A stretch of DNA of 64,000 bases from Sediminicoccus rosea (GTDB lineage: Bacteria; Pseudomonadota; Alphaproteobacteria; Acetobacterales; Acetobacteraceae): the NCBI RefSeq assembly GCF_033547095.1, contig NZ_CP137852.1, positions 310,001 to 374,000 on the forward strand, written 5' to 3'. The position numbers and the translations under genes are program-made. The notes beneath the pieces were generated by a model. It worked only from the letters and a program-made list of their open reading frames with translations. It had not been told where the DNA came from and made no database searches. Positions 14,961 through 21,969 of the stretch are shown one piece after another. How positions within the stretch are numbered: the first letter of the stretch is position 1; each line of letters begins with the position of its first letter.

Positions 14961-15457
14961 GCGAAGCGGCACTCCCCTCCGAACTCACCATCCCCGTGGC
15001 CATCCTGGCCGAGCGCCGGCCGGGCGTGACCATCTGGCAGTCCCATGTCTGGCGCGCCCTGGCCGTGCTGGAGGAGGCGCCGCCCGTTCCCGCCTGGACC
15101 AGATTGCGCGAGGAGAATGGCCGAGAGGTCTTCTTCGCCGGCACGGCGGAGGTGAAGCTCCATCGCACCGACACGCCCAACTACAAGGACAATCTGGAAG
15201 CCGCCGAGCCGCGCATCTGGGTGGTGCTGCGCGACACGCCGGAGGGCATGAGCATCCAGGCCGTGACGGTGGATCCCGGCGAGGCCGAGATCTACACCGA
15301 AGGCCCCTCCGACCTGATCGAGGCGCTGCCGCTGCCACCCGGCCTCGCCGTGCTGCTGGCGAGCTTCGTCGCGACCCATCACGTCGAGCGCGAATTCCAC
15401 AAGCGCAAGCGCGACCGGCAGGACATCGATTCGCTGGGCCGGAAGGGCCGCGTGTGA
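14957..15457 (+). CDS. DUF3305 family protein (formate dehydrogenase accessory)
   Basis: The 166-aa protein has the DUF3305 pattern: IPVAILAERRPGVTIWQSHVWRALAVL at the N-terminus, an internal ELHRTDTPNYKDNLEA-like segment (KLHRTDTPNYKDNLE), then PRIWVVLRD and a basic tail EREFHKRKRDRQD. DUF3305 and DUF3306 occur as an adjacent pair upstream of periplasmic FDH genes in many proteobacteria, including Shewanella. The ATG overlaps the DUF6352 stop (ATGA). Confidence 0.85.
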   Translation: MSEAALPSELTIPVAILAERRPGVTIWQSHVWRALAVLEEAPPVPAWTRLREENGREVFFAGTAEVKLHRTDTPNYKDNLEAAEPRIWVVLRDTPEGMSIQAVTVDPGEAEIYTEGPSDLIEALPLPPGLAVLLASFVATHHVEREFHKRKRDRQDIDSLGRKGRV

Positions 15458-16149
15458 TGCCGGAGGAGGCGGAAAAGCTCGGCTTCCTGAGCCGCTGGTC
15501 GCGCCGCAAGCGCGGCGAGGAGGTGCCAGAGCCCGAACCACCCGCCCCGCCGGTCCAGGCGCAGCCGGAGCCCGAGCCCGAACCGGTGGCCGAGGCGCCG
15601 CCGCCCGAGCCGGAATTCGACATCTCCACCCTGCCGCCCATCGAGACGCTGGATGCGAGCAGCGACTTCACCGTCTTCCTCAAGCCCGGCGTGCCCCAGG
15701 CGCTGCGGAATGCCGCGCTGCGCAAGGCCTGGCTCGCTGATCCGCTGATCCGCGACTACATGAGCCCGCTCGACTACGCCTGGGACTTCAACACCCCGGG
15801 CGGCCTGCCGCATGGCTTCAGCAATGTGCTGGCCGAGACGGGCGAGGCGCTGCGGAAGCTGGTCAACCAGGCCATCGGCGAGATGGAGGCGGAGGAGGAG
15901 AAGCCGGCCGAACCGCCGCCCGGCGCCCTGGCCCTGGCCGAGGCCGGCCAGCCACAGCCGGAAGGCGAGCCGCCGCCGGCGGAAGAGCCCCTGCTGGTGG
16001 AAGGACCGTCCGCTTCGGATGACAGCCAGGACATCTTGGCGCTGGACCCGATCCGCCTGAGCGAGGCGCCGCTGCCGGTGCCGCCGCCCACGCTGGAGGA
16101 GCCGCCGCCGCCGCCCCGGCGCCGCCATGGCGGCGCCATGCCCGCCTGA
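15457..16149 (+). CDS. DUF3306 family protein (formate dehydrogenase accessory)
   Basis: The 230-aa protein has a conserved N-terminal segment FLSRWSRRKRGEE, a long acidic/Pro-rich linker (residues about 25-50), a central block LPPIETLDASSDFTVFLKPGVPQALRNAALRKAW...DYAWDFNTPGG (about 53-115) typical of DUF3306, and a disordered Pro/Glu C-terminus. GTGATG offers two starts: GTG 15454 (GTGA overlap with DUF3305) and ATG 15457. I used ATG 15457, 9 nt from GGAAGGG. Function unknown; part of the FDH accessory set. Confidence 0.8.
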   Translation: MPEEAEKLGFLSRWSRRKRGEEVPEPEPPAPPVQAQPEPEPEPVAEAPPPEPEFDISTLPPIETLDASSDFTVFLKPGVPQALRNAALRKAWLADPLIRDYMSPLDYAWDFNTPGGLPHGFSNVLAETGEALRKLVNQAIGEMEAEEEKPAEPPPGALALAEAGQPQPEGEPPPAEEPLLVEGPSASDDSQDILALDPIRLSEAPLPVPPPTLEEPPPPPRRRHGGAMPA

Positions 16150-16173: not shown

Positions 16174-16201
16174 TTGAGAATGCTTCGCATTCTCATATAA
16201 G
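16174..16201 (+). promoter_or_regulatory. Sigma70-like promoter with a 21-bp palindromic operator in its spacer
   Basis: TTGAGA (16174-16179, 5/6 to consensus) and TATAAG (16196-16201, 5/6) are separated by 16 bp. A perfect palindrome fills this interval: arms GAGAATGC (16176-16183) and GCATTCTC (16187-16194) around TTC, extended by one T/A pair to 16175-16195. A protein bound here would block polymerase. The core matches 13 of 19 positions of the classical Fur box. An alternative reader is the HTH domain of the downstream YdaS-TorD fusion. It drives the torD-fdhABC segment. Confidence 0.65.
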
Positions 16202-16271
16202 TCTTTGAAAACGCGGCCTGTTTTGTTCGTCCCGGTTGACGCCGGTGCAAGATTTCTGCACTGTCATCTCA

Positions 16272-17054
16272 ATGGACCGGGGAACACAGACAGGCGGGCT
16301 AGACGCAGCCATCGCCGCGGCTGGGGGCATGGAAGCCTTCCAGTCGGCGCTCAATGTCGCGCGCCGCACGGTCTTCCTCTGGAAACAACAGGGTGTTCCC
16401 GCCGAACGCGTGCCCGAGATCGAGGCCGCGACCGGCATCTCGCGCCACGCCCTGCGCCCCGACCTCTGGCCCGCCCCCTCGGCCCAGGCGGCCGATCCGC
16501 TGCGCGAGGGCCGCGCCAACCTCTACGCCCTGCTCGGCCATCTGCTGAGCGACGTGCCGGACCCTGCCCTGCTCGCGCGTCTCACCGCCATCCCGGCGGA
16601 TGACTCGCCCATCGGCCGCGCGCTGGGCGCGCTCGCCGCCGCCGCCCGCGCGGCCGAGCCCGCGGCGCTGGAGCGCGAGTATCACGAGCTCTTCATCGGC
16701 CTGGGGCGCGGCGAGTTGCTGCCCTACGCCTCCTACTACCTGACCGGCTTCCTGCATGAGCGCCCGCTCGCCGAGCTGCGCTCCGACCTCAAGCGGCTGG
16801 GCATTGCCCGCTCCGCCGGGGTGCATGAGCCCGAGGACCACATCGCCTTCCTCTGTGAGGTGATGGCGGGCCTGCTCCGCGGCGGCGTCCCGGAGGAGGC
16901 CGATGCGATGTTCCAGCGGCATATCCGCCCCTGGGCGATGCGCTGCTTCAGCGATTTGTGCGTGGCCCAGGCGGCGGTGTTCTACCGGCCCGTCGGCGAA
17001 TTGGGCCGCGCGCTGATGGATGTGGAATTGGCCGCGGCCGAGCTGCCGGCCTGA
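16272..17054 (+). CDS. YdaS/Cro-like HTH domain fused to TorD-family chaperone
   Basis: Of 260 aa, residues about 9-60 have the YdaS-type HTH pattern (AAIAAAGGMEAFQSAL, RRTVFLWKQQGVPAERVPEI, then EAATGISRHALRPDLWP). Residues about 70-255 are a TorD/DmsD chaperone (REGRANLYALLGHLL, LEREYHELFIGLGRGELLPY, EPEDHIAFLCEVMAGLL). TorD proteins bind Tat signals of molybdoenzymes until cofactor is inserted. The HTH suggests an added DNA-binding role. ATG 16272 has no clear Shine-Dalgarno site. It lies 70 bp after the promoter/palindrome at 16174-16201 and just upstream of fdhA. Confidence 0.85.
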   Translation: MDRGTQTGGLDAAIAAAGGMEAFQSALNVARRTVFLWKQQGVPAERVPEIEAATGISRHALRPDLWPAPSAQAADPLREGRANLYALLGHLLSDVPDPALLARLTAIPADDSPIGRALGALAAAARAAEPAALEREYHELFIGLGRGELLPYASYYLTGFLHERPLAELRSDLKRLGIARSAGVHEPEDHIAFLCEVMAGLLRGGVPEEADAMFQRHIRPWAMRCFSDLCVAQAAVFYRPVGELGRALMDVELAAAELPA

Positions 17055-17081: not shown

Positions 17082-17312
17082 ATGGCGAATGAACAGGAGA
17101 CGGCCGGCAAGCGCCGTGGGTTCCTCAAGACCTTGGGCTTCGGCACCGCCGCCGCGGCGGCGGCCGTGACGCCGGCGCTGGCGCAGCGCGCCGATTCCGT
17201 GCCGGCGCGTGACGCCCGCAAGGAGAACGCGGCCACCCGCGTCGCGGCGCGCTACCAGCCCAACTCGCCCTCGGTGCAGGCCTTCTACCGCACCAACCGC
17301 TACGAAACCTGA
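17082..17312 (+). CDS. Formate dehydrogenase region Tat-signal small protein
   Basis: The 76-aa protein belongs to the small FDH-locus Tat-target family (TIGR02811 type). It has a twin-arginine signal KRRGFLKTLGFGTAAAAAAVTPALA and a 40-residue mature tail, PNSPSVQAFYRTNRYET. Placement just before fdhA is conserved in this type of locus. It may be exported and assemble with the enzyme or serve as decoy/guide for the TorD chaperone; neither is shown. A good ribosome site (GGGAGAGGAGAA) precedes ATG 17082. Confidence 0.85.
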   Translation: MANEQETAGKRRGFLKTLGFGTAAAAAAVTPALAQRADSVPARDARKENAATRVAARYQPNSPSVQAFYRTNRYET

Positions 17313-17332: not shown

Positions 17333-20272
17333 ATGCTCATCAAGCGCTCCGACGGGGTCCGCGCCAAGCAGCGCCTCGCCTCCGCCTATCAGGGCCTCTC
17401 CGCCGGCGGTCTCGATCGCCGCGGCTTCCTCAAGCAGGCTGGTCTTGCCGGCGCCGGCGTGGCCGCGCTGGCCGGCATCGCGCCGCGCATGGCCGAGGCC
17501 GCAGGTGCGGCCACCGGCGTGATCAACCACGAACAGCCGGTCACCCGCGTCAAGAACATCTGCACCCATTGCTCGGTCGGCTGCACGGTCGTCGCCGAGG
17601 TGCAGAACGGCGTCTGGGTCGGTCAGGAGCCCGCCTGGGAATCGCCGATCAACCGCGGCACGCATTGCGCCAAGGGCGCCTCGGTGCGTGAGCTGGTGCA
17701 TGGCGACCGCCGCATCAAGTTCCCGATGAAGCTCGTGGGCGGCCAGTGGCAGCGCATGAGCTGGGACGCCGCGATGTCCGAGATCGGCGAGAAGATGATG
17801 GAGATCCGGCAGAAGTCCGGTCCCGACTCCGTCTTCCTGCTCGGCAGCGCCAAGTTCTCCAATGAGGGCGCCTACCTGTACCGCAAGTTCGCCGCCTTCT
17901 GGGGCACGAACAGCGTGGACCACCAGGCGCGCATCTGCCACTCGACCACGGTGGCGGGCGTCGCCAACACCTGGGGCTACGGCGCGCAGACCAACTCCTA
18001 CAACGACATCCGCAATTCCAAGACCATGATCATCATGGGCGGGAACCCGGCGGAGGCGCACCCCGTCTCGCTGCAGCACGTGCTGTCCGGCAAGGAGACG
18101 AACCGCGCCAACCTGATCGTCATCGATCCGCGCTACACGCGCACGGCCGCCCATGCGACCGATTACGTCCGCATCCGCCCGGGCACCGACATCCCCATCA
18201 TCTGGGGCATGCTCTGGCACATCTTCCAGAACGGCTGGGAGGACAAGGAGTTCATCCGCCAGCGCGTGCACGGCATGGACGACGTGCGTGCGGAAGTCGC
18301 CAAGTGGACGCCGCAGGAAGTCGAGCGCGTGACCGGCGTGCCGGGCGCGCAGCTCCGCGCGGTCGCCGAGAAGTTCGCGACGCAGAAGCCCTCGACGCTG
18401 ATCTGGTGCATGGGCGCCACGCAGAAGACGGTCGGCACCGCCAATGTGCGCGCCTACTCCATCCTGCTGCTGGCCACCGGCAATGTCGGCAAGGAAGGCA
18501 CGGGCGCCAACATCTTCCGCGGCCACTGCAACGTGCAGGGCGCGTCGGACTTCGGCCTCGATGTCGCGACGCTTCCCGCGTACTACGGCATTGATGAGAA
18601 CGCCTGGCGCCACTGGTCGCGTGTCTGGGGCGTCTCCTTCGAGAGCATGCGCGCGCGCTTCGACACGCCGCAGATGATGCACACCCCGGGCATCCCGACG
18701 ACGCGCTACTTCGACGCGATCCTGCTGCCCAAGGACCAGGTGCAGCAGCGCGACAACACCAAGGGCATGATCGTCTTCGGCCATGGCGGCAACACCGTCA
18801 CCCGCATGCCCGAGGCGGTGAAGGGCCTGGAGGCGCTGGATCTGCTGGTCGTCGCCGACCCGCATCCGACGACCTTCGCCGTGCTCTCCGGCCGCCGCGA
18901 GAACACCTATCTGCTGCCCATCTGCACGCAGTTCGAGTGCAATGGCAGCCGCACCAGCTCCAACCGCTCGGTGCAGTGGTGCTCCAAGGTGGTGGATCCG
19001 ATCTTCGAGAGCCGCACCGACTATCGCGTGATCTATGACCTCGCGAAGTCGCTCGATGCCGCCGCCACGCGCCGCAACATGACCTACCGCATCGCGGAGG
19101 AGATGTTCCGGCCTTATGAGATCGTGAACGGCGAACCGACGGCCGAGAGCATCCTGGGCGAGATCAACCGCGGCGCCTGGGGCACGGGTTACTCGGGCAT
19201 CTCCGCCGCGCGCCTCAAGCTGCACCAGCAGCACCAGGACAAGTTCGACCTGGTGACGCTGCGCGCCGGTGCGAACGCGCCCGCCGAGATTCGCGGCGAC
19301 TACTACGGCCTGCCCTGGCCCTGCTGGGGCACGCCCGAGATGCGCCACCCCGGCAGCCACATCCTCTACAACACGAACATCGCCGTGAAGGATGGCGGCG
19401 GCAGCTTCCGCCCGCGCTTCGGCCTGGAGCGCAACGGCGTCACCATGCTGGCCGAGGGCAGCTGGTCCAAGGATTCCGACATCCAGGACGGCTACCCCGA
19501 GTTCACGGTGGCCGTGCTCAAGCGCCTCGGCTGGTTCGATGAACTGACGGCGGCCGAGAAGGAAAGCATCGCCCGTGTGGGTGGCGCCAACCAGGACGCG
19601 GTGTCCTGGATGACCGACCTCTCGGGCGGCATCCAGCGCGTGGCCATCGCGCATGGCTGCTCGCCCTTCGGCAATGGCAAGGCCCGCGCCAATGCGTGGA
19701 ACCTGCCCGACCCGATCCCGGTCCATCGCGAGCCGATCTACACGCCGCGCAACGACCTGATCGCCCAGTATCCGACGCTCCCCGACCGGCGTGGCTTCCG
19801 CCTGCCGCATCTGGGCCAGTCGGTGCAGGCGCGCAGCCCGCAACTGGCGGCGGAATTCCCGATCATCCTCACCTCCGGCCGACTGGTGGAGTATGAGGGC
19901 GGCGGCGAGGAAACCCGCTCGAACAAGTGGCTGGCCGAGCTGCAGCAGGACATGTTCGTGGAGATCAACCCGCGCGACGCCGCGGCCCGCAACATCCGCG
20001 ACGGCGGCTGGGTCTGGGTCATGGGCCCCGAGAGCAGCAGCCGCACCCGCGTGAAGGCGCTGGTGACGGAGCGCGTGGGCCCCGGCGTGGCCTTCATGCC
20101 CTTCCACTTCGCCGGCTGGTTCCAGGGCACGGACCAGCGCAGCAAGTACCCGCAGGGCACGGACCCGATCGTGCTCGGCGAGTCGGTGAACACGCTCACC
20201 AGCTACGGCTATGACCCGGTGACCTTCATGCAGGAAACCAAGGTCACCATCTGCCAGATCCGTGCGGCTTAA
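17333..20272 (+). CDS. fdhA: Formate dehydrogenase major (alpha) subunit, molybdopterin, Tat-exported
   Basis: The 979-aa catalytic subunit oxidises formate to CO2 in the periplasm. It has a Tat motif DRRGFLKQAG at residues about 29-38, an N-terminal 4Fe-4S site CTHCSVGC...GTHCAKG (residues about 78-115), and a bis-MGD Mo domain. The Mo ligand is Cys202 (HQARICHSTT, codon TGC 17936-17938), where some enzymes have selenocysteine. The MGD dinucleotide-binding C-terminal domain starts near residue 835 (FPIILTSGRLVEYEGGGEETRSN). It is organised torD-tat-fdhA-fdhB-fdhC. Confidence 0.96.
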   Translation: MLIKRSDGVRAKQRLASAYQGLSAGGLDRRGFLKQAGLAGAGVAALAGIAPRMAEAAGAATGVINHEQPVTRVKNICTHCSVGCTVVAEVQNGVWVGQEPAWESPINRGTHCAKGASVRELVHGDRRIKFPMKLVGGQWQRMSWDAAMSEIGEKMMEIRQKSGPDSVFLLGSAKFSNEGAYLYRKFAAFWGTNSVDHQARICHSTTVAGVANTWGYGAQTNSYNDIRNSKTMIIMGGNPAEAHPVSLQHVLSGKETNRANLIVIDPRYTRTAAHATDYVRIRPGTDIPIIWGMLWHIFQNGWEDKEFIRQRVHGMDDVRAEVAKWTPQEVERVTGVPGAQLRAVAEKFATQKPSTLIWCMGATQKTVGTANVRAYSILLLATGNVGKEGTGANIFRGHCNVQGASDFGLDVATLPAYYGIDENAWRHWSRVWGVSFESMRARFDTPQMMHTPGIPTTRYFDAILLPKDQVQQRDNTKGMIVFGHGGNTVTRMPEAVKGLEALDLLVVADPHPTTFAVLSGRRENTYLLPICTQFECNGSRTSSNRSVQWCSKVVDPIFESRTDYRVIYDLAKSLDAAATRRNMTYRIAEEMFRPYEIVNGEPTAESILGEINRGAWGTGYSGISAARLKLHQQHQDKFDLVTLRAGANAPAEIRGDYYGLPWPCWGTPEMRHPGSHILYNTNIAVKDGGGSFRPRFGLERNGVTMLAEGSWSKDSDIQDGYPEFTVAVLKRLGWFDELTAAEKESIARVGGANQDAVSWMTDLSGGIQRVAIAHGCSPFGNGKARANAWNLPDPIPVHREPIYTPRNDLIAQYPTLPDRRGFRLPHLGQSVQARSPQLAAEFPIILTSGRLVEYEGGGEETRSNKWLAELQQDMFVEINPRDAAARNIRDGGWVWVMGPESSSRTRVKALVTERVGPGVAFMPFHFAGWFQGTDQRSKYPQGTDPIVLGESVNTLTSYGYDPVTFMQETKVTICQIRAA

Positions 20273-20284
20273 GGGAGAAACGAC

Positions 20285-20881
20285 ATGGCCCGCATGAAAT
20301 TCCTCTGCGACGCGGATCGCTGCATCGAGTGCAACGCCTGCGTCACCGCCTGCAAGAACGAGCATGAGGTGCCCTGGGGCATCAACCGCCGCCGCGTCGT
20401 CACCATCAATGACGGCAAGCCCGGCGAGCGCTCGATCTCCATGGCCTGCATGCACTGCACCGACGCGCCCTGCGCGGCGGTGTGCCCGACCTCGTGCTTC
20501 TACACCACGGCCGATGCCGTGGTGCTGCACGACAAGGACACCTGCATCGGCTGCGGCTACTGCTTCTACGCCTGCCCCTTCGGCGCGCCGCAGTACCCCC
20601 GCGTGGGCAACTTCGGCGGCCGCGGCAAGATGGACAAGTGCACCTATTGCGCCGGCGGTCCGCAGCAGGACAACACGCGCGTGGAGTACACGCAGTACGG
20701 CAGCAACCGCCTGGCCGAAGGCAAGCTGCCGCTCTGCGCCGAGATGTGCTCCACCAAGGCGCTGCTCGCCGGCGATGGCGAGATGATCGCGACCATCTAC
20801 CGTGAGCGCGTGCAGCGCCGCGGCTATGGCTCGGGCGCCTGGGGCTGGCGCACCGCCTATCGCGAGAACATCACCACCTGA
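20285..20881 (+). CDS. fdhB: Formate dehydrogenase beta (iron-sulfur) subunit, FDH3 type
   Basis: The 198-aa electron-transfer subunit carries four 4Fe-4S clusters. Motifs in order: CDADRCIECNACVTAC, CMHCTDAPCAAVCP, CIGCGYCFYACPFGAPQ, and CTYCAGG...CAEMCSTKAL. It is shorter than the E. coli FdnH type and lacks a C-terminal membrane anchor, so the gamma subunit must provide attachment. It starts 12 bp after fdhA with a GGGAGAA site. A terminator-like hairpin follows within 10 bp of the stop. Confidence 0.95.
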   Translation: MARMKFLCDADRCIECNACVTACKNEHEVPWGINRRRVVTINDGKPGERSISMACMHCTDAPCAAVCPTSCFYTTADAVVLHDKDTCIGCGYCFYACPFGAPQYPRVGNFGGRGKMDKCTYCAGGPQQDNTRVEYTQYGSNRLAEGKLPLCAEMCSTKALLAGDGEMIATIYRERVQRRGYGSGAWGWRTAYRENITT

Positions 20882-20945: not shown

Positions 20946-20952
20946 AATGCAC

Positions 20953-21969
20953 ATGAAACGGCTCATTCTCGCACCCTTCCTGGTGCTGCTCCTGGCCTTC
21001 TCGACCGCCAGCCTCGCGCCGGCCTTCGCACAGAACGCGCCGACCCAGGCCGGCTCCGGCCGCGGCACGGTCAGCGCGGACGAGATGGAGATGCAGCGCC
21101 TGCTGCAGGGCGGCCGCGTCGAGGGTCGCACCTCGATCCCCGACCCGCGCTCGGAAGTCCTCATCCAGCCGCAGGGCAAGGCCTGGCGCGACTTCCACAA
21201 CGTGACGCTGGCCTGGGTCGGCGGCATCGCGGTGGGCGGCATGGCGCTGATCCTGATCGCGTTCTACGCCACGCGCGGCCGCATCCGGATCGAGGGCGGG
21301 CCGGCCGGCCGCACCATCAGCCGCTTCAACATGCTGGAGCGCGCAAACCACTGGATGGTCGCCTCCTCCTTCATCGTGCTGGGCCTGACCGGCCTGAACC
21401 TGACCTTCGGCCGGCACATCCTGCTGCCGATCCTCGGCCCCTATACCTTCGCCGAGGTGTCGCTCTGGGGGAAGATCGCGCACAACTTCGTGGCCTTCCC
21501 CTTCACGCTCGGCATCGTCGTCATGCTGCTGCTCTGGGTGAAGGACAACATCCCGAACGGCCGTGACATCGAGTGGTTCAAGATGGGCGGTGGCCTGATC
21601 GGCAAGGGCCATCCGAAGGCCGGCCGCTTCAACGGCGGCCAGAAGATGGTGTTCTGGATCACCGTGCTGGGCGGCGGCATCGTCGCGGCCTCTGGCTACT
21701 TCCTGATCTTCCCCTTCTGGGGCGAGTTCGGCGTGGCCGACATGCAGCTGGCGCACATCATCCACTCCATCCTCTCGGTGCTGATGGTGGCGGCGATGAT
21801 CGCACACATCTACATCGGCTCGGTCGGCATGGAAGGCGCCTTCGATGCCATGGGCTCGGGCGAGGTGGACCTGAACTGGGCCAAGGAGCACCACGGCCTC
21901 TGGGTCGAGCAGGAGATGGCCAAGGCTCGCCAGGTCGTGGCGCCCTCCGGCGTGAAGCCGGCGGAGTAA
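20953..21969 (+). CDS. fdhC: Formate dehydrogenase gamma subunit (cytochrome b556)
   Basis: The 338-aa membrane subunit passes electrons from FdhB to the quinone pool using b-type hemes. It has an N-terminal signal peptide (KRLILAPFLVLLLAFSTASLAPAFA), a periplasmic stretch to about residue 75, then four to five TM helices. Likely heme-ligand His lie in ERANHWMVASSF, HNFVAFPF and LAHIIHSIL. I chose ATG 20953 because GGAGG (20941-20945) is 7 nt away; an in-frame ATG two codons earlier is too close. A hairpin follows at 21993-22017. Confidence 0.93.
   Translation: MKRLILAPFLVLLLAFSTASLAPAFAQNAPTQAGSGRGTVSADEMEMQRLLQGGRVEGRTSIPDPRSEVLIQPQGKAWRDFHNVTLAWVGGIAVGGMALILIAFYATRGRIRIEGGPAGRTISRFNMLERANHWMVASSFIVLGLTGLNLTFGRHILLPILGPYTFAEVSLWGKIAHNFVAFPFTLGIVVMLLLWVKDNIPNGRDIEWFKMGGGLIGKGHPKAGRFNGGQKMVFWITVLGGGIVAASGYFLIFPFWGEFGVADMQLAHIIHSILSVLMVAAMIAHIYIGSVGMEGAFDAMGSGEVDLNWAKEHHGLWVEQEMAKARQVVAPSGVKPAE

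Follow-up and report, generated by a model that had tools for sequence, protein, structure and literature searches.

To our knowledge, most proteins that control their own genes by way of a fused DNA-binding domain are isolated cases. PutA, NadR, BirA, MocR and BzdR either join a DNA-binding domain to an enzyme or enzyme-like domain or are themselves enzymes that bind DNA. The HTH (helix-turn-helix) families and partners that they use are, as far as we know, other than those of the protein described here. A second line of comparison comes from phage. The Cro protein Xfaso 1 (PDB 3bd1) and the N-terminal domain of YdaS from E. coli O157 (8co2) are small DNA-binding domains of prophage origin, and a similar N-terminal domain on CarA is described by the NCBIfam model carph-isopro (NF046037). 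The third group comprises the redox enzyme maturation chaperones TorD, DmsD and NarJ, which share the Pfam family PF02613.

These lines meet in one gene of Sediminicoccus rosea, found in the 64,000-nucleotide stretch of DNA that was analysed here and is called the window throughout (Table 1). Like PutA, NadR, BirA, MocR and BzdR, its product holds DNA-binding and metabolic domains in one chain. It differs from Xfaso 1 Cro and YdaS in that the domain is fused to a chaperone and lies within a metabolic gene cluster, and from TorD, DmsD and NarJ by the added N-terminal HTH. With carph-isopro CarA it shares a similar N-terminal domain, but it scores under the cut-off of that model and has a different helix, palindrome and partner. 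The original prediction knew of no described example. This agrees with a search of the open-access literature, which covers part of the field: we found there no report of an HTH-TorD fusion, none of one Cro-type domain common to many housekeeping proteins with matched operators, and no paper on the name carph-isopro.

Table 1. The fusion gene, its domains, its gene cluster and candidate regulatory sites (window coordinates)
Feature	Position	Strand	Basis
DUF3306 gene, directly upstream of torD	15454..16149	+	PF11748 over cut-off; synteny
Second palindrome TGAGAATGCTTCGCATTCTCA, 21 bp, 9-bp arms, upstream of torD	16175..16195	.	sequence
TTGACG, -35-like box 3 bp before predicted operator	16236..16241	+	TTGAC kept in class A loci
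Predicted operator GTGCAAGATTTCTGCAC (GTGCA-N7-TGCAC)	16245..16261	.	conserved palindrome
HTH-TorD fusion gene	16272..17054	+	ATG 16272, stop 17052-17054, 260 aa, open frame
YdaS/Cro-type HTH domain, aa 10-66	16299..16469	+	PF15943
Predicted recognition helix, aa 31-40 (RRTVFLWKQQ)	16362..16391	+	AlphaFold2 helix
TorD/NarJ-type chaperone domain, aa 75-260	16494..17051	+	PF02613 match, aa 109-226
Small Tat-signal protein (formate_TAT-like)	17082..17312	+	TIGR02811 under cut-off; TIGR01409 Tat signal over cut-off
FdhA, formate dehydrogenase alpha	17333..20272	+	TIGR01591 Fdh-alpha best NCBIfam match (464 bits, under cut-off 666); beside FdhB and FdhC
FdhB, FDH3 beta subunit	20285..20881	+	NF038355, 335.5 vs 240 bits
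FdhC, formate dehydrogenase gamma (cytochrome b)	20947..21969	+	TIGR01583, 155 vs 115.85 bits

That the protein begins with a YdaS/Cro-type HTH and continues as a TorD chaperone had been proposed from the letters alone, and both halves are borne out by profile searches. The Pfam family PF15943 (YdaS_toxin) matches residues 10-66 with 46.4 bits against a cut-off of 30 (E 3.4e-12), and PF02613 matches residues 109-226 with 106.3 bits against 22.2 (E 1.6e-30). More specific models stay below their thresholds: carph-isopro on residues 11-61 reaches 29.8 bits for the whole protein and 34.2 for the domain alone (cut-off 38), and the NCBIfam equivalogs for TorD and DmsD score far under theirs (39.8/132 and 42.9/162). 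AlphaFold2 places five helices across residues 8-61, of which 20-27 and 31-40 form the HTH, with pLDDT block means of 82-91 over residues 11-60. The domain adopts an all-helical Cro fold with a helix-turn-helix, and its closest structure is Xfaso 1 Cro. In structure comparisons the fold relatives of the chaperone domain are NarJ, YcdY, DmsD and TtrD. The chaperone part of the fusion was predicted poorly from an input alignment of 10 sequences (pLDDT block means 31-67), so no arrangement of the HTH and TorD domains relative to each other is claimed.

In an alignment of 10 sequences nine of the ten positions of the recognition helix are invariant, compared with 113 of 186 in the TorD part, 37 of 57 in the whole HTH and three of eight in helix 20-27; outside the recognition helix the HTH shows no special conservation. 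This pattern argues for a kept DNA contact rather than for general conservation.

The DNA-binding domain and the chaperone domain are truly fused in one polypeptide. A frame or assembly artefact is ruled out by 12 further congeneric genomes and one from another genus, all with an identical domain order free of stops. An HTH family, a predicted HTH and relatives with the same fusion were all found where the original prediction had allowed for their absence. Among 60 relatives, own genome included, the congeneric proteins are 71-96% identical to the window protein (two are cut by a contig end), and that of the other genus is 52% identical. Across 299 Acetobacteraceae genomes, again with the own genome counted, 20 carry the fused TorD, 19 in full length and one split (G309), and 57 match the TorD part only, with E below 1e-30; among these 57, one match starts at a contig end (G308), one is in pieces (G207) and three have a stop in the matched stretch (G130, G301 and G025). 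In the wider class, a set of 385 alphaproteobacterial genomes holds the fusion in nine beside the own genome, spanning seven other families. In one genome, G536, TorD stands behind a different HTH family (HTH_31/HTH_3; L181, G536:C87:24000-25800), apparently as an independent fusion.

The genomic setting connects the chaperone with a likely client. The second gene 3' of the fusion torD is fdhA, which links the chaperone to a Tat-dependent molybdoenzyme, and a twin-arginine signal, RRGFLK, can be read by eye in FdhA. When 21 fdh (formate dehydrogenase, FDH) regions were compared, the order DUF3305-DUF3306-TorD-FdhA-FdhB-FdhC held for loci with and without the fusion, to the extent that the contigs cover them. 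The gene fdhA lies downstream in 20 of the 21, the remaining locus being cut by a contig end. Among these same regions, L152 and L153 showed neither DUF6352 nor the small Tat protein, and the latter was also not found in L140-L144. FdhA of at least 83% identity occurs in 12 of the 13 fused genomes of the genus (in two as fragments) versus none of eight others; G019, the remaining fused genome, has a contig that stops shortly after torD. Beside the fusion gene no ydaT was found; its neighbours are DUF3306 and the small Tat-signal protein, syntenic across genomes. At 17036-17051, where torD gives way to the next gene, lies a terminator-like stem (one found, 0.6 expected in shuffles), which would weaken the reading of torD and fdh as a co-transcribed operon.

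Which DNA might such a domain recognise? We grouped fused TorD proteins by their recognition helix, class A being those with RRTVFxWKQ or close to it, the window protein among them. The palindrome GTGCA-N7-TGCAC is exact upstream of 15 of 17 class A genes; L016 departs from it at one position and L087 at two. Shared ancestry of these loci inflates the count, which becomes 9/11 once near-copies are removed. In 3400 dinucleotide shuffles of the same regions the palindrome never appeared exactly. All 17 loci have TTGAC 2-4 bp before the palindrome or, in L016 and L087, its variant; a consensus promoter scan found no sigma-70-type promoter. The own genome of 5.1 Mb contains the palindrome three times, and the two copies other than that of torD fall inside open reading frames. 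Across 18 genomes there are one to five copies each, also in four congeneric genomes that lack the fusion, and single copies elsewhere are therefore background.

Two further observations concern individual sites. In L087 (G322), where the palindrome is off at two positions, the end of the HTH is altered as well (RLNPW for RPDLW), which may reflect a joint decay of protein and operator. Farther upstream of the window gene lies TGAGAATGCTTCGCATTCTCA, which by eye resembles a Fur box, and similar stretches can be seen by eye in several class A loci. Iron control of FDH through this element is possible.

Other helix types come with other palindromes. Class B (helix SQPA[VI]S) has ATAAG-N5-CTTAT, exact in six of eight loci and with at most one mismatch in all eight, compared with no exact occurrence in 1600 shuffles. 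In five of the eight genomes the copy before torD is the only exact one genome-wide, and in G152 it is one of three; in G024 and G110 the torD site is one mismatch away and exact copies lie elsewhere in the genome. Class C (helix [AS]QPS[VIL]S), whose loci come from Acetobacteraceae and five other families, has ATAG-N7-CTAT in 9/9 (shuffle maximum 3), and in three of them the palindrome runs into TTGAC. The fused torD genes of class D have ACAAA-N4-TTTGT in 3/3 (shuffle maximum 2). The unfused comparison set consists of 14 torD loci, 12 from Acetobacteraceae and two from other families (L017 and L018), drawn from at least 57 unfused matches; none of the six palindromes that we tested occurs upstream of any of them. 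The same holds for L181, with its different HTH, which was kept apart from the classes. Before upstream motifs were counted we excluded L078 (contig ends at the gene), L096 (internal stop) and L100 (same locus as L014).

An enumeration blind to these motifs gave the same picture. All palindromes with 5-bp arms and a 3-9 bp spacer within 200 nt upstream were listed after removal of near-copies, and the top patterns were GTGCA-N7 in class A (9/11) and ATAAG-N5 in class B (6/8). In 200 shuffled sets the highest count for any pattern was two or three. At unfused torD the best 5-bp-arm palindrome occurs in two of 14 loci and the best 4-bp-arm palindrome in three of 14, a value that 111 of 200 shuffles attained as well.

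When six palindromes were crossed with eight gene sets, each occurred at its own set only, with zero elsewhere: class A 15/17, class B 6/8, class C 9/9, carA 26/30, pyk 20/21 and cysD 7/8. For torD this cross-table is not blind, classes A to D having been fixed after the helices and the upstream DNA were viewed; the helix letters alone reproduce the split (RRT in 17/17 of A, QPA in 8/8 of B, QPS in 9/9 of C). The palindrome sequence appears to go with the type of recognition helix, with helix type and descent inseparable for A and B because each forms one clade. This can be seen in a tree of the TorD domain with 51 rows, from which L016 was left out as too short. Class A is sister to 10 unfused rows, within a larger group that also holds fused rows of classes B and C. 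The unfused rows force at least three changes, which means repeated loss, or repeated gain, of the HTH domain. On the best tree class C takes three changes, and one origin is compatible with the well-supported branches.

Similar HTH domains are also found on proteins of unrelated activity. The own genome carries them on CarA (L135) and pyruvate kinase (L136), and further loci have them on CysD (L124), an NAD(P)HX epimerase/dehydratase (L180), MurA (L179) and a CcdA-type antitoxin (L131). Partner domains were confirmed over the Pfam cut-off at one locus each; the remaining members of the pyk, cysD and carA sets were assigned by inspection of the sequence or from a short motif, and PAPS_reduct and EPSP_synthase are the Pfam families that we interpret as CysD and MurA. 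The HTH of the L124, L180, L179 and L131 proteins exceeds the PF15943 cut-off, that of pyruvate kinase exceeds the cut-off of the Pfam family P22_Cro, and that of the own CarA is under the Pfam cut-off (17.1 of 30) but reaches 67.1 bits against 38 with carph-isopro. The latter model matches in 115 of 120 family genomes, 113 of them over cut-off, and its 30 best-scoring loci all look like CarA.

At these genes, too, gene-specific palindromes are found. The carA fusions (L135 at G000:C1:4829600-4832300 and L029-L058) have GGGAA-N5-TTCCC upstream, often in two copies; it is the top enumerated pattern, in 26 of the 30 best-scoring loci, and one of its three copies in the own genome lies at carA. 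A control with 30 other alphaproteobacterial genomes, the best of 46 with a match, showed this palindrome in 0/30 within 400 nt before the CPSase domain, and no N-terminal HTH was recognisable by eye in their CarA. Of the 21 pyk fusions (L136, L105-L121, L024, L025 and L028), 20 have CTTA-N7-TAAG upstream, in one or two copies. At an arm length of 5 bp the enumeration gave two patterns, GCTTA and ACTTA, with 4/17 each, and the 4-bp form CTTA-N7 reached 16/17 (shuffle maximum 6). At the cysD fusions (L123-L130) TTTAG-N5-CTAAA is the top enumerated pattern, in seven of eight. The pyk, cysD, class C and class D sets are matches of a TorD-fusion query or profile or of PF15943, and the carA set is the 30 best matches, all of them incomplete surveys. 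We read these genes as a family of self-regulating fusions that would be built on a phage repressor domain. The TorD fusion is one member of a wider set of proteins with a similar domain, among them CarA, pyruvate kinase and CysD, for which a palindrome specific to the gene was seen as well.

Several loci at the margin of the set were inspected by eye. The MurA fusion (L179, G628) and the NAD(P)HX-repair enzyme (L180, G051) combine a YdaS domain with a palindrome-like stretch upstream. An HTH is joined to a CcdA-type antitoxin in L021, L022, L026, L122 and L131-L133, according to Pfam for L131 and by reading for the rest. The stand-alone or CcdA-joined YdaS-type genes L131-L134 have upstream repeats, for example of the GTGGG/CCCAC type in L134. 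Finally, the large proteins L163-L178 match the HTH part of the fusion profile weakly; a membrane-like stretch can be seen in many of them, and GTAC-rich repeats lie upstream of some. L163 contains HemD and a weak Mitofilin match, and a Pfam HTH match was not found in it.

We propose that the window protein, a TorD-type chaperone joined to a phage Cro/YdaS-type HTH, regulates its own gene cluster, torD-tat-fdhA-fdhB-fdhC, most likely by repression, and put the probability of this at about 0.77. Judged from sequence, the proposal draws on the pair of domains, on the conservation and location of the palindrome, on its absence from the unfused torD genes compared and on the different palindrome for each helix type. 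The protein, which probably also helps assemble formate dehydrogenase, would act as a dimer, probably binding GTGCA-N7-TGCAC from 3 bp after the -35-like box and so likely blocking the torD-fdh promoter. The gene torD would be co-transcribed with fdh, and any signal would be passed on by the TorD domain. That fdh transcription is under the control of the fusion protein, as the original prediction had it, is likely given an HTH and a helix-matched palindrome just before this row of genes. Activation in place of repression would accord with the ability of phage regulators of the Cro kind to activate. The class A palindrome lies 2-4 bp downstream of TTGAC in all 17 loci, two variants counted, where a bound protein is expected to block polymerase, and we consider an activator unlikely. 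It is still less probable that a different regulator binds the palindromes, with the HTH being a remnant or a protein-protein interface. Such a view could point to the HTH as a whole, where conservation barely exceeds that of the TorD part, but the torD and carA palindromes are present with the fusion and absent without it, they differ as the helices differ, and the recognition helix is nearly invariant. As for a toxin or toxin-antitoxin component, the Pfam name YdaS_toxin is all that speaks for it, and whether YdaS is a toxin at all is described as debated (PMC5917428). The fusion sits in a formate dehydrogenase cluster that is syntenic across genomes, and we reject the toxin reading as hardly conceivable.

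If the fusion protein is an autogenous repressor, what might it respond to? In the simpler case the HTH would gauge the level of its own protein and repress the operon accordingly, with no part for the TorD domain in the switch. This special case of autoregulation has close to an even chance in our judgement. It is favoured by the feature common to the tested members, a gene-specific palindrome at the fusion gene itself on partners of unrelated activity, and it leaves the choice of these particular proteins unexplained. The other special case, which takes up the original prediction, is a loop in which occupancy of TorD by pre-FdhA or by the small Tat protein alters DNA binding, in either direction, so that FDH assembly would set fdh transcription. 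Chaperone and HTH do share one chain; among the fold relatives of the chaperone are signal-peptide binders, including E. coli NarJ, which was solved with the NarG signal peptide; and fdhA follows torD in all fdh loci but the truncated one, with a closely similar FdhA in nearly all fused genomes of the genus and in none of the others compared. CarA, CysD and CcdA have, like TorD, a stoichiometric partner protein, which suits titration models. Pyruvate kinase and MurA are not known to have one, and with the NAD(P)HX-repair enzyme they make up fusions with no such known client, so client sensing is not the common denominator of the set. We hold the loop to be possible and advance it tentatively, the data fitting it and plain negative autoregulation alike.

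In its most far-reaching form the proposal is that Alphaproteobacteria, and Acetobacteraceae above all, use a phage Cro-type domain as an interchangeable tag by which TorD, CarA, pyruvate kinase, CysD, NAD(P)HX repair, MurA and CcdA regulate their own genes, each with its own palindrome, and that loading of TorD with pre-FdhA switches DNA binding, so that Tat-dependent assembly sets fdh transcription. Taken as a whole this is speculative, and we regard it as somewhat more doubtful than the loop by itself. One small phage-type domain on several unrelated proteins, with candidate operators readable from sequence, offers a direct approach to the question of how metabolic proteins and chaperones turn into transcription factors, and it provides ready helix-operator pairs for decoding Cro-type specificity. 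For the TorD member, transcription would be tied to export quality control in a way that is open to testing.
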